DNA from: Halobacillus sp. Marseille-Q1614 | GTDB lineage: Bacteria; Bacillota; Bacilli; Bacillales; Halobacillaceae | Length of the DNA: 64,000 nt | NCBI RefSeq assembly: GCF_902809865.1 | Contig: NZ_CADDWH010000001.1 | Span: forward strand, 1,364,001 to 1,428,000 | Direction: 5' to 3' | Part shown: in pieces, positions 42,625 to 58,766 of the stretch | How the letters are laid out: each line of letters begins with the position of its first letter | Position numbering within the stretch: the stretch's first letter is position 1 | Made by a program: the position numbers and the translations under genes | Notes under the pieces: model-generated | Seen by the model: the letters and a program-made list of their open reading frames with translations, nothing else | Databases searched by the model: none | What the model was told of the DNA's origin: nothing

Positions 42625-43368
42625 TTACTCTTCTACGGCTTCTGTTTCTGTCTCAGCTTCAGCTTCTTCAGCTACTTCGTTCTCTTCACCTTGTTTAGCT
42701 TCAAGAACAGCGTCAGCCATTTTAGCTGTAAGCAGTTTAACCGCACGAATCGCATCATCGTTAGCTGGGATTACATAATCGATTTCATCTGGGTCACAGT
42801 TTGTATCGACAATTCCAACTACTGGAATATTTAATTTATGAGCTTCGGCAATCGCGATGCGCTCTTTACGAGGGTCAATGACGAACATCGCATCAGGAAT
42901 AGAAGTCATTTCTTTAATACCGCCAAGGAACTTAACCAGGCGATCTTTTTCTTTTAGTAAGTCTACTACTTCTTTCTTAGGAAGTACGTCGAAAGTACCG
43001 TCTTCTTCCATACGCTCTATATCTTTTAAGCGGTTGATACGCTTGCGGATCGTTTGGAAGTTTGTAAGAGTACCACCTAACCAGCGCTGATTGATGTAGA
43101 ACATGCCACAGCGTGTAGCCTCTTCACGTACAGTGTCTTGTGCTTGCTTCTTAGTACCGACGAAAAGGATGTTTCCGCCTTCCTCAGCAACCTGACGTAC
43201 ATAGTTGAAAGCTTCATCAACCTTTTTCACAGTTTTTTGAAGGTCGATGATGTAAATACCGTTACGCTCTGTGAAGATATATTTTTTCATCTTCGGGTTC
43301 CAGCGGCGAGTTTGGTGTCCGAAATGCACACCAGCTTCTAGCAGCTGTTTCATAGAAATTACAGACAT
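42625..43368 (-). CDS. rpsB: 30S ribosomal protein S2
   Basis: A 247-residue S2 beginning [27 protein letters not shown]. It contains the helical-hairpin insertion and ends in a strongly acidic tail ([20 protein letters not shown]), longer than usual. It has its own promoter and a ~120-base leader. In B. subtilis it follows swrB, and the swrB remnant still precedes it here. Confidence 0.97.
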
Positions 43369-43522
43369 TTGAAAGTCCTCCTGTTTGGTTTTTTATTAGT
43401 ATCCTCCGCCTCTATCATTTCTTCGCCCCAACCCTTCATGCGAAGAGCAACCTGAGACAAGATTAAGAGACGTGTGTATTGACACCGTCAGTAAATATAC
43501 CATAATCGACCAGGTCAATCAA
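43369..43522 (-). promoter_or_regulatory. rpsB promoter and leader
   Basis: TTGATT (43517-43522), a 17-base spacer and TATATT (43494-43499) on the minus strand. The ~120-base leader contains complementary CTTCGC and GCGAAG segments around 43420-43445 and may be an S2 autoregulatory RNA. Because the promoter sits at the very end of the swrB remnant, rpsB expression does not depend on the lost fla/che operon. Confidence 0.72.
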
Positions 43523-43525
43523 GTT

Positions 43526-43927
43526 CTAGTGAGAATTTTTTTCATCGAATTTTACAATCAGTTCTATTTCTGTTCGCCCGGCTTCTAAATCCCTTGCAAT
43601 CTTCTCTATTGAATCGCCCTTCCTTTGCCTAGTGAGCACCTGTGAATGAAGGGGAGGGTTAGGCTGTTGTTCAAAAATTGGCGGCTCATCGTTTATCGGA
43701 TCTTCGCCAGACGTTTGCGGCACGCTTGTCTGATCTGCATCGAGCCGCTGATTTTCTGTTTTAATTTCACTTAAATATTAAGCAAACAGTTCAGCCATAT
43801 CCTTCATCGCCTGATGATGGGAGCGTTCCAACTCTTCTGACTGCTTCAGTCTTGTAAATAAAGCAATGGTCGTAAGGATGAGCACCCCATGTAGGATAAA
43901 GCTAATAACCAGTAAAAAGTATACCAT
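43526..43927 (-). pseudogene. swrB: swrB (ylxL) remnant with an in-frame stop
   Basis: An ATG at 43927 after AGGG opens a frame with an N-terminal membrane helix (YFLLVISFILHGVLILTTIA) and a charged stretch. Codon 50 is TAA (43778-43780). The same frame then continues without interruption for 83 codons to a stop at 43526. Location between sigD and rpsB and the single N-terminal membrane anchor match SwrB, a motility regulator. The TAA is easily explained as a changed CAA (Gln) codon. The gene is broken, in keeping with the destroyed flagellar operon beside it. Confidence 0.78.
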
Positions 43928-43935
43928 TTTATCCC

Positions 43936-44341
43936 TCATTTATTAAAGCCGCTTACAGGACCCCCAATGACTTCTAATAATGACTTTCGAAGCTTAAAAA
44001 TAGCATTCGAGTGAATCTGTGAAATCCTTGAAGTCGTCAATTCCAAAACTCCCCCTATTTCTGTTAAAGTCAGCTCTTCATTGTAAAATAAGCCGACGAC
44101 CAACTGTTCCTTTTCATTCAGCCTTTTTATATGATCGGCCAGCTCGTTGATATTTTCCTTTTTCACAACATGCTCATACGGGCTTTCTGCCTCCCGGTCC
44201 GGGATCGAATAACCAATGCCTTCCTTATGTTCTTTGTCCTTCGCTTTTTCTTCCATAGATAAGACATTAGCAAATAACGAATCTTTAATGACTTCTTTTA
44301 CTCCAACACGGCTCATATGCAGTTCAGCCGCAATTTCATCT
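43936..44341 (-). pseudogene. sigD: sigD 3' fragment (sigma-D regions 3-4 only)
   Basis: The last ~135 codons of the motility sigma factor: the region-3 stretch SDEIAAELHMSRVGVKE and region 4 (LNEKEQLVVGLFYNEELTL; TSRISQIHSNAIFKLRKSL) are clear. Everything upstream, including region 2 that binds core polymerase and the -10 box, is missing and replaced by fliF sequence in another frame. An internal ATG (44316) could still start a 126-residue peptide, but it could not act as a sigma factor. The swrB remnant follows nine bases later. Confidence 0.88.
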
Positions 44342-44627
44342 GAGGCAGCGAATCCGCTTGTTTCTCTGGGACGGCTATTGTCCCTCCATCACCGATTTCG
44401 TATGCTGCTCCCCGAGCATCCAGTTCTTCTTTGACCTGCCCGACCTCAGTAAGTGATAAATCCTGATAAAGCGGAACCATGTTCGTCTGGGAAGCGAATA
44501 AGCCGGCAGCTTCCAGTAAAAAAACAAACCCGGCTGCAGCACCGATCATTACGCCTTTTTGCTTCATTGACCGCTCTTTCCAGAACACTGTTCCTTTATT
44601 TATGTATAAATTTATTTTTTCTTTCAT
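44327..44627 (-). pseudogene. fliF: fliF 5' fragment fused to sigD
   Basis: The first ~100 codons of the flagellar MS-ring protein: MKEKINLYINKGTVFWKER, one membrane helix (GVMIGAAAGFVFLLEAAGLF), then VPLYQDLSLTEVGQVKEELD and IAVPEKQADSL, as in FliF. The normal protein is over 500 residues. The frame leaves FliF around 44330-44341, runs a few codons into the sigD region out of frame and stops at 44313. The join removes all of fliF's remainder and every fla/che gene up to the middle of sigD. Confidence 0.88.
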
Positions 44628-44757
44628 AATTGCCCCAAAAAAAAGCCTATCAATCGCCACTTTAAAGTCAGCTGCAAAAGTAGAGTGAGCTTCATTTGGA
44701 GTAATTGACTTGCCATGCTGTGGCTGAACGTGAGTCAGCGGTGAAACAATGTACCAT
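44628..44757 (-). pseudogene. fliE: fliE 5' remnant running into fliF
   Basis: Downstream of flgC a frame reads SPLTHVQPQHGKSITPNEAH, then STFAADFKVAID, resembling the FliE N-terminus. It then passes directly, in frame, into the fliF start (RLFFGAIMKEKINL). The only ATG with a ribosome site (44757) is out of frame by one base in a TTT run, so the 5' end is also damaged. The C-terminal two thirds of FliE are missing. The identity rests on position and short similarity. Confidence 0.65.
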
Positions 44758-44772
44758 CTTGCAGAAACATCC

Positions 44773-45228
44773 TTATTGTTTTCCGATTTCCAGTGCTTTC
44801 ATAAGCATTCCTTTAGACGCATTTAATGACGTAATGTTGGCTTCATAAGATCTTGTCGCACTCATCATATCGATCGTTTCTTCCAACGGGTCAACGTTTG
44901 GCATTTGAACATACTCAGCTTCATTGGCGTCCGGGTGATTCGGATTAAACACTTGCTTAAAAGGTGTTTCATCATCGACGATTTCCACAGCTTTTACACC
45001 GCTTGCTCTATATGTCTGTAAAGCTTGTTGGAAAATTGCACGAAACTCCGGCTCCTGCGGCTGAAGGTCCACCATTTTCCTGCGATAAGGCTGCTGCCAC
45101 TCTCCTTTTTCATTCAAAACAGCTCTCGTCGTATTGGCATTGGCCATATTAGAAGTCGCGACATCCATCCTCAGCCTTTGCGCTGTCATTCCACTCGCAC
45201 TAACATTCATTGAATGAAAGATACTCAT
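44773..45228 (-). CDS. flgC: Flagellar rod protein FlgC, open frame in a dead operon
   Basis: A 151-residue FlgC with intact ends: SIFHSMNVSASGMTAQRLRM and DVATSNMANANTTRA at the N-terminus (SNMANANT rod-protein motif) and the C-terminal helical segment MSATRSYEANITSLNASKGM. GGGAGG precedes the ATG. It is the only flagellar gene here without an obvious lesion, but its neighbours flgB, fliE, fliF and sigD are all broken, so it cannot contribute to a rod from this locus. It is probably a recent relic. Confidence 0.85.
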   Translation of the reverse strand: MSIFHSMNVSASGMTAQRLRMDVATSNMANANTTRAVLNEKGEWQQPYRRKMVDLQPQEPEFRAIFQQALQTYRASGVKAVEIVDDETPFKQVFNPNHPDANEAEYVQMPNVDPLEETIDMMSATRSYEANITSLNASKGMLMKALEIGKQ

Positions 45229-45230
45229 TA

Positions 45231-45622
45231 CTAGTTTCCTCCCCTAACCACTTCTTTTAAACTGTTAAACTTCCCGCTCAGCCGCTCGACTAATGCCTGA
45301 TACTGGATCTGGTTTTTAGCTAATTCATTCAATTCCTTATCAATGTCCACATTATTTCCGTTGTGATTGTAAATGGTCCCTTGTCGTGAAGTAGTTTGAA
45401 TCACGGGGGAGGAGCTATTTTCGAAGGTGAAATGTTTCGGATGGGTTCTTTTTGCTTCCAGGCTGTTGAGTTCTCCACTTAATACATTTTTAAAGGTCAC
45501 TTGTTTTGCTTTATACCCGATGGTATCTACGTTAGTAATGTTGGCGGAGATGACCTTGTTTTTTTCGCAGATAGGTTTAAAGAATTTTCCAGTGTGGTAA
45601 AGGTATCACTAAACAGTTTCAT
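45231..45622 (-). pseudogene. flgB: flgB, frameshifted
   Basis: The ATG at 45622 (ribosome site GGGGAA) opens MKLFSDTFTTLENSLNLSAK. The frame is then lost in a run of seven A (around 45564-45570); one extra A would restore KNKVISANITNVDTIGYKAK and the rest of FlgB through GNNVDIDKELNELAKNQIQY and ALVERLSGKFNSLK to the stop at 45231. The conserved rod motif is also degraded (DTIGYK for the usual DTPNYK). A homopolymer sequencing error is possible, but the surrounding decay favours a true pseudogene. Confidence 0.83.
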
Positions 45623-45903
45623 AGTTCCCCATATTTGACAAATTCCTACAATACAGCCAATCACACAGGAAGTCTTTTTACCTGTAAATTATATAATAAC
45701 TCTCTTTTTATCGGCAACAACCTACTTTACACCTACGCTTTTTGTAGGCATATAGAGTTAATTTTTACTATTTGTCGAAATAACCTACTATAAGAACATT
45801 ATTTTATATTTATTAAACAAAAAAGCCCTACGAAAGGTATAAATTTTAGTTATAATTAAGGGTAAAAATGATTAATAATTGAATTTTACTAGGCCTAAAC
45901 AAA
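45623..45903. other. Gene-free stretch upstream of flgB with fossil fla/che promoter
   Basis: About 280 bases, very AT-rich. The minus strand has TTGCCG (45712-45717), an 18-base spacer and TATAAT (45688-45693), a good sigma-A promoter for the flagellar operon. The overlapping GCCGATAA resembles a sigma-D -10, but no TAAA lies at the right distance. CCTAC/GTAGG words recur four times at 45721-45790, forming a small hairpin (CCTAC-7-GTAGG). The promoter may still fire into the remnants. Confidence 0.55.
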
Positions 45904-45935
45904 CAAAAAAGCAGCTCCTTTGAGTGGAGCTGCTT
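45904..45935 (-). terminator. Intrinsic terminator of codY
   Basis: Perfect stem AAGCAGCTCC / GGAGCTGCTT with a 7-base loop and a TTTTTTGTTTG tail. It isolates the codY operon from the flagellar remnants. Confidence 0.92.
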
Positions 45936-45939
45936 TTCC

Positions 45940-46719
45940 TTAGTTCGAACGTAGCTTTTGAAGCTCAACTAAGAAGTTATTATTTAGTACTTTAATGTAT
46001 GTTCCTTTCATACCAAGTGATCTGGATTCAATAACTCCTGCACTTTCAAGCTTACGGAGCGCATTTACAATAACAGATCTCGTGATTCCTACACGGTCTG
46101 CAATTTTACTTGCTACAAGCAGGCCTTCGTTTCCTTCAAGCTCTTCGAAGATATGCTCAATAGCTTCTAATTCACTATAAGACAGTGAGCTGATCGCCAT
46201 TTGTACAACAGCTTTACTGCGGGCTTCCTGCTCAATCTCTTCCGTTTTCTCATGAAGGATTTCCATACCTACTACAGTGGCCCCGTATTCAGCAAGCAGT
46301 AAATCATCCTCGTTAAAGCTTTCATTTAGTCTGCTTAGGATAAGAGTCCCTAAACGCTGCCCTCCGCCGATAATCGGAACGATCGTCGTTAAGCCTTCCT
46401 CAAAAAGCTCTTTGTTTTCTACAGGGAATGCTGTATACTCACTTTCAATATCCAGGTTTGGAGTCGTCTCTTGGATGTTAAATAAGTTCTGGGTATACTC
46501 CTGTGGAAACTGGCGTTCAGAAAGCATTGCTTTCATTCTTTCATTTTCAATCTCCTGTTTGATGGCAAAACCTAAAAGCTTTCCCCGGCGGCTGAGTACG
46601 AAAGTGTTCGCACCGATGACATCGCGTAATGTCGCGGACATGTCGTTAAAGTCCACCGACTTTCCTGTTGTTTTCTGAAGCATAGCGTTAATTCTTCTTG
46701 CACGATTTAATAATTCCAT
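45940..46719 (-). CDS. codY: Global transcription regulator CodY
   Basis: A 259-residue CodY, the same length as in B. subtilis. An N-terminal GAF domain binding branched-chain amino acids ([20 protein letters not shown]) is followed by a C-terminal winged helix ([20 protein letters not shown]). It represses nutrient-limited functions when GTP and isoleucine/leucine/valine are high; in B. subtilis it also represses fla/che just downstream. ATG 46719 follows GGAGG by eight bases. Confidence 0.97.
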
Positions 46720-46749
46720 GTTCATTTCCTCCTAACAATTTATAAACTA

Positions 46750-58653: not shown

Positions 58654-58766
58654 TCCTTCTCAACTAATGCTCTTACCTTCTACGAGACAGCGGAACATCG
58701 TTTTTAAGCTTAAACCGAACATTTAAGCACAAAAGATAATATACCATAATCTATTAAGTTTCGCAA
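58654..58766 (-). promoter_or_regulatory. rplS promoter and leader (L19-leader-like)
   Basis: TTGCGA (58761-58766), a 17-base spacer and TATATT (58738-58743) on the minus strand. The ~80-base leader (58654-58731) has complementary GCT(T)AAA and TTTAAGC arms and GTTCCGCTGTCTCGTAG, AAGGTAAGAGC segments. Bacillaceae rplS genes are known to have an L19 leader RNA; the match is inferred from position. Confidence 0.6.

Follow-up and report, generated by a model that had tools for sequence, protein, structure and literature searches.

In Bacillus subtilis the fla/che operon is laid out between codY and rpsB. The locus described here has the same neighbors and the same order of its remaining pieces (flgB, flgC, fliE, fliF, sigD, swrB), although 24 of 30 open reading frames (ORFs) longer than 100 codons are gone, as counted on the relative G010, which stands in for the B. 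subtilis layout. Flagellar loss is common, but what is seen is mostly its end state. Listeria immobilis is reported to lack all genes of the flagellar locus in an otherwise motile group (PMC10865800); it and other non-motile Listeria resemble the present genome in having lost flagella within a motile group, whereas this genome keeps fragments and has a part-collapsed sister. For Alicyclobacillus acidocaldarius a recent loss of motility was inferred from the genome and its relatives, with most flagellar genes reported present and a few missing (PMC3035248), whereas here nearly all are gone. Many flagellar gene losses are described in the Actinobacteria, also in free-living species (PMC10746217), and these are on the scale of a phylum whereas ours lies within one family and includes intermediate stages. 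Chloride is reported to be required for flagellin synthesis and motility in H. halophilus (PMC2412884). We found no literature on flagellar loss in Halobacillus, with most subscription journals lying outside the search. Losses of this kind are known, but the intermediate stages are unusually well represented here: the 44 genomes of the family include intact layouts, the part-collapsed genome G005, and two nearly finished cases, G000 and G028, with different break points. Because these stages occur in one family, a few more genomes would allow a test of the sequence in which chemotaxis, rotor and export, filament, stator and sigma factor were lost.

The window analyzed is a stretch of 64,000 nucleotides (G000:C1:1364001-1428000) from G000, a 3.98 Mb genome of the Halobacillus group in three contigs. 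The locus keeps its position between codY and rpsB, the gap between these genes is 2,571 bp compared to ~28.2 kb in G010, and all elements of the interval lie on the minus strand (Table 1). The remnants are very probably the relic of a Bacillus-type flagellar and chemotaxis operon in a bacterium that no longer makes flagella, reduced by a deletion together with smaller and separate lesions. The deletion, of ~25 kb by comparison with G010, would have joined fliF to sigD, smaller lesions would have broken flgB, fliE and swrB, and separate lesions would have removed or broken three other flagellar loci (the flgM-to-fliT block, motAB and flhOP). The G010 interval contains 30 ORFs longer than 100 codons, 29 of which were covered by NCBIfam scans; the best matches are to FlgB, FlgC, FliE, FliF, FliG, FliH, FliI, FliJ, FlgD, FlgG, FliL, FliM, FliY, FliZ, FliP, FliR, FlhB, FlhA, FlhF, CheB, CheA, CheW, CheC, CheD and a FliA/WhiG sigma factor. 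The CheA, CheW, CheC, CheD and FliZ matches score under the curated cut-off; no match was obtained for one ORF, and a few others gave unspecific matches only. The names swrB, fliK, flhG, fliT and the like are presumed from gene position. With the 47 ORFs of 70 codons or more in a 40-kb stretch of G010 as queries, tblastn matches inside the G000 interval are confined to flgB, flgC, fliF, sigD and swrB, and with fliE, found by DNA alignment, 6 of the 30 ORFs are recognizable. The other 24 are without a tblastn match in the interval at E ≤ 0.01, which bears out the first-pass annotation in its claim that the genes between fliF and sigD are absent.

Table 1. Features of the codY–rpsB interval of G000 and its flanks (positions are those of the window).
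Feature	Position	Strand	Evidence
codY, intact left neighbor	45940..46725	-	261-aa ORF; 98% identical to G010 CodY
Terminator-like stem-loop 3′ of codY	45905..45939	-	consensus scan, 14 pairs
flgB pseudogene	45234..45622	-	tblastn, residues 1-21 and 19-130 of G010 protein in two frames
flgC, open frame, 151 aa	44773..45228	-	ORF; tblastn, residues 1-153
fliE stump, roughly the first third; ends approximate	44650..44765	-	DNA alignment with G010
fliF stump, residues 10-110 (~101 codons)	44346..44645	-	tblastn; Pfam YscJ_FliF positions 2-51 of 179
fliF/sigD join, out of frame	44343..44350	-	ends of the two matches
sigD tail, residues 126-255 (~130 codons)	43966..44349	-	tblastn; Sigma70_r4, E 2e-13
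swrB pseudogene with in-frame stop	43538..43927	-	tblastn, residues 29-157
Promoter-like site 5′ of rpsB	43494..43522	-	consensus scan, 9/12 matches
rpsB, intact right neighbor	42625..43368	-	247-aa ORF; 96% identical to G010 RpsB

Five of the six remnants are broken, and flgC alone is still open; its product contains the Pfam Flg_bb_rod and Flg_bbr_C domains and is 69% identical to G010 FlgC. The flgB frameshift lies near 45560-45569, and the longest flgB ORF has no Pfam match; fliE gave no tblastn match with the G010 query. The sigD tail forms an ORF of 126 aa (43936-44316), and the swrB ORFs are split into 43778-43939 and 43526-43723 with the stop at about 43778. This is the set described in the first-pass annotation (a frameshift in flgB, an open flgC, a stump of fliE, fliF joined to sigD, and swrB with a stop), and tblastn, ORFs and alignment together confirm it; the join, which had been put at 44330, is relocated by the match ends given in Table 1. 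The two genes meet there in different frames, which precludes a fusion protein. No long direct repeat is present at the join in a search of 43300-46000; the two deletion ends may share a few bases. Both flanking genes are intact as had been claimed, and the nearest named record, Halobacillus sp. Marseille-P3879, likewise has a CodY with 98% identity to that of G000. Sites that could serve as their own terminator and promoter, the other part of that claim, are present but do not exceed expectation from shuffled sequence, with 2 terminator-like sites against 2.0 expected and 8 promoter-like sites against 5.5 (sd 2.6).

The remainder of the genome, whose assembly is rated 99.99% complete, was searched for the FlhA, flagellin, chemoreceptor, CheW, FliF, MotA_ExbB and rod-type families. 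There are no matches at all for FlhA, flagellin, chemoreceptors or CheW, the one FliF match is the stump, the one MotA_ExbB match is truncated, and rod-type proteins number two, compared to four in G005 and six in each of the other nine genomes of the genus. FlhA and flagellin are present in ten of the 11 genus genomes (FlhA at full length in nine), G000 being the one that lacks them, and chemoreceptors and CheW are present in nine, being absent from G000 and G005. Outside the codY–rpsB interval, a frameshift interrupts motA at residue 117/118, and motB is truncated, lacking residues 1-164; flhO carries both a stop and a frameshift, and flhP is missing its first 121 residues. A block running from flgN to fliT and including flgK, flgL, hag and fliD (counterpart in G005, L117:7895-15078) is excised, leaving 57 residues of a flgN-like gene and 22 of the last gene. 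The genes adjoining the excised block and the motAB and flhOP loci align. This is decay at multiple loci rather than one deletion, and the first-pass proposal of loss through a large deletion is incomplete, with three further loci broken and cheV and a receptor gene gone. The broader first-pass claim that flagella have been lost is strongly supported; no second operon emerged from the genome-wide search, and no intact flagellar system was found elsewhere in G000 among the families searched. The cells are presumably non-motile.

A comparison of 80 named codY loci bears on whether a working operon could reside elsewhere in G000, with the codY–rpsB copy a leftover. The genes flgB to fliG follow codY in 68 loci, in keeping with an operon that stays intact at this site in relatives, and only the start of flgB follows it in one (L067); two (L038 and L053) are too short to tell, and in nine (L028, L060, L069, L073, L077, L079, L085, L089 and L091) rpsB directly adjoins codY. 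Relocation clearly occurs in relatives, as seven of these nine genomes, whose completeness is not given, have FlhA elsewhere and thus the operon at another place; FlhA was not found in the genomes of L028 and L060, and is present in the controls L020 and L026. Adjacency of codY and rpsB was therefore rejected as a marker, and is not by itself a sign of lost flagella. For G000 a relocated operon has a practically negligible chance and was rejected, since genome-wide searches in a nearly complete assembly found none, with four families unmatched and FliF present only as a stump, and since the stator and rod genes are broken too.

A misassembly, with the chromosome still holding the operon, would account for the join but not for the small lesions away from it (the flgB frameshift, the fliE deletion and the swrB stop), for those at three other loci, or for the missing families that are encoded elsewhere, and we give it only a very slight chance. 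There is a small chance that either flgC or the 126-aa tail of sigD is still expressed and serves another purpose, as both frames are open and the tail retains region 4. However, the tail is without region 2, the part of a sigma factor responsible for core binding and −10 recognition, no ribosome-binding sequence is seen by eye before its first ATG, and its omega value (below) is not separable from 1; no use is known for FlgC when the other rod parts and the export gate are missing.

With the locus read as the relic of a lost flagellar operon, several patterns emerge from its relatives. FlhA is matched in 42 of the 44 family genomes, with none in G000 and G028; the match in G005 spans positions 396-656 only, and those in G025 and G030, the latter a draft of ~1000 contigs, are in two pieces. 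The G025 pieces (G025:C1:3028139-3030092) cover positions 1-73 and 73-656, and reflect either a frameshift or a sequencing error. In G001, flagellin is in two pieces (G001:C1:3821332-3822024), one with an internal TAA, and a MotA-family match with an internal TGA accompanies an open one elsewhere in the genome. G000 and G005 are sister genomes with an ultrafast bootstrap of 100, and five housekeeping genes show 85.4% identity between them. The codY–rpsB interval of G005, ~6.9 kb long, represents a different and partial collapse. Here flgB, flgC and fliE are open over their aligned length, fliF and fliG are frameshifted, flhA residues 430-679, flhF residues 1-56 and scraps of cheA in two frames are kept, and sigD residues 1-251 are in one frame; swrB gave no tblastn match. 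The flgK, flgL, hag, fliD, motA, motB, flhO and flhP genes of G005 are all present without a frameshift. The interval of G028, which belongs to another genus of the same family, is ~4.0 kb and contains flgC with two stops, part of fliE, fliF residues 2-125 followed by the end of a flhG-like gene, and swrB; this collapse is independent of those in G000 and G005. The G028 sigD gene (G028:C1:2390001-2410000, L138) is open from residue 6 to 255 in one frame while the fliF-to-flhG genes are deleted, and its product may have been retained to serve other genes. In all three genomes fliF is broken between residues 110 and 125, with differing break points and joins: near residue 110 there is the join in G000 and the loss of a few codons with a frameshift in G005, and the G028 gene ends near residue 125. 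Because the sequences differ, we provisionally take these similar positions as coincidence. No inactivating change common to G000 and G005 was found in flgB, flgC, fliE, fliF or sigD.

The timing of the loss was addressed with a codon model (our own script, F3x4 frequencies, a fixed tree of 12 genomes). For flgB, flgC and the fliF stump, omega on the G000 branch is 0.051 compared to 0.049 elsewhere, an estimate from 360 codons with heavy synonymous change and a background that includes the decayed copy of G028. Values of 1 and 0.4 fit worse (2ΔlnL 8.8 and 6.6), and 0.2 is only marginally rejected (2ΔlnL 4.0). A frameshifted flgB cannot be selected as FlgB and yet its pattern is constrained, so it probably broke late on the G000 branch, and the rejection of neutral drift over the whole branch indicates that the loss is probably recent relative to the G005 split, the sense in which the first-pass description of it as recent is upheld. 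In G005, flgB, flgC and fliE (365 codons) have an omega of 0.046 (2ΔlnL 21.0 against 1). These sequence comparisons favor loss of the flagellum after the split of G000 and G005, separately in both, and the G000 remnants presumably now drift. The G000 sigD tail (126 codons) has an omega of 0.20 (2ΔlnL 1.0 against 1; p 0.08 against background). Relaxation of sigD in G005, suggested by an omega of 0.56 for the 126-codon fragment (p 0.014), was dropped as the full 251 codons give 0.023 (p 0.41). In the 126-codon sigD set, codY on the G000 branch has a lower omega of 0.001 (p 0.0055), and this significantly low value indicates that single-branch values are noisy.

Part of chemotaxis probably went first, as both sisters lack cheV and one receptor gene at the same positions. 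In a comparison that left out G007 and G008, cheV occupies one syntenic site in G010 and all six others (G001, G002, G003, G004, G006 and G009), and the receptor gene one site in G010 and all four others (G002, G004, G006 and G009). The DNA of G000 and G005 aligns without interruption where cheV is missing, and the cheV loss, at least, is most simply placed in their common ancestor, before the operon collapses. We infer that the receptor gene was likewise lost in the common ancestor, although G000 and G005 differ by several hundred bases at that site, which makes its shared loss less certain. A tentative scenario, which we regard as possible rather than probable, is that this ancestor lost cheV and receptors with its flagellum still under selection and swam without steering, that its daughters then dismantled their flagella independently with different deletion end points, and that G028 did likewise alone. 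At the receptor site of G000 and G005 the receptor gene alone is missing. An MFS transporter gene there was considered as a replacement and rejected, since it is a long-standing neighbor that also lies beside the receptor gene in G009, G002, G006 and G004; it was not found in the G010 stretch. In G000 this MFS gene (C1 near 1610000-1612000, L151) is broken into two ORFs that overlap, one of 138 aa and one of 298 aa, compared to 402 aa in G005. Within the window, the sole Rfam match is an L19 leader RNA at 58664-58701 on the minus strand, which scores just above the gathering threshold.
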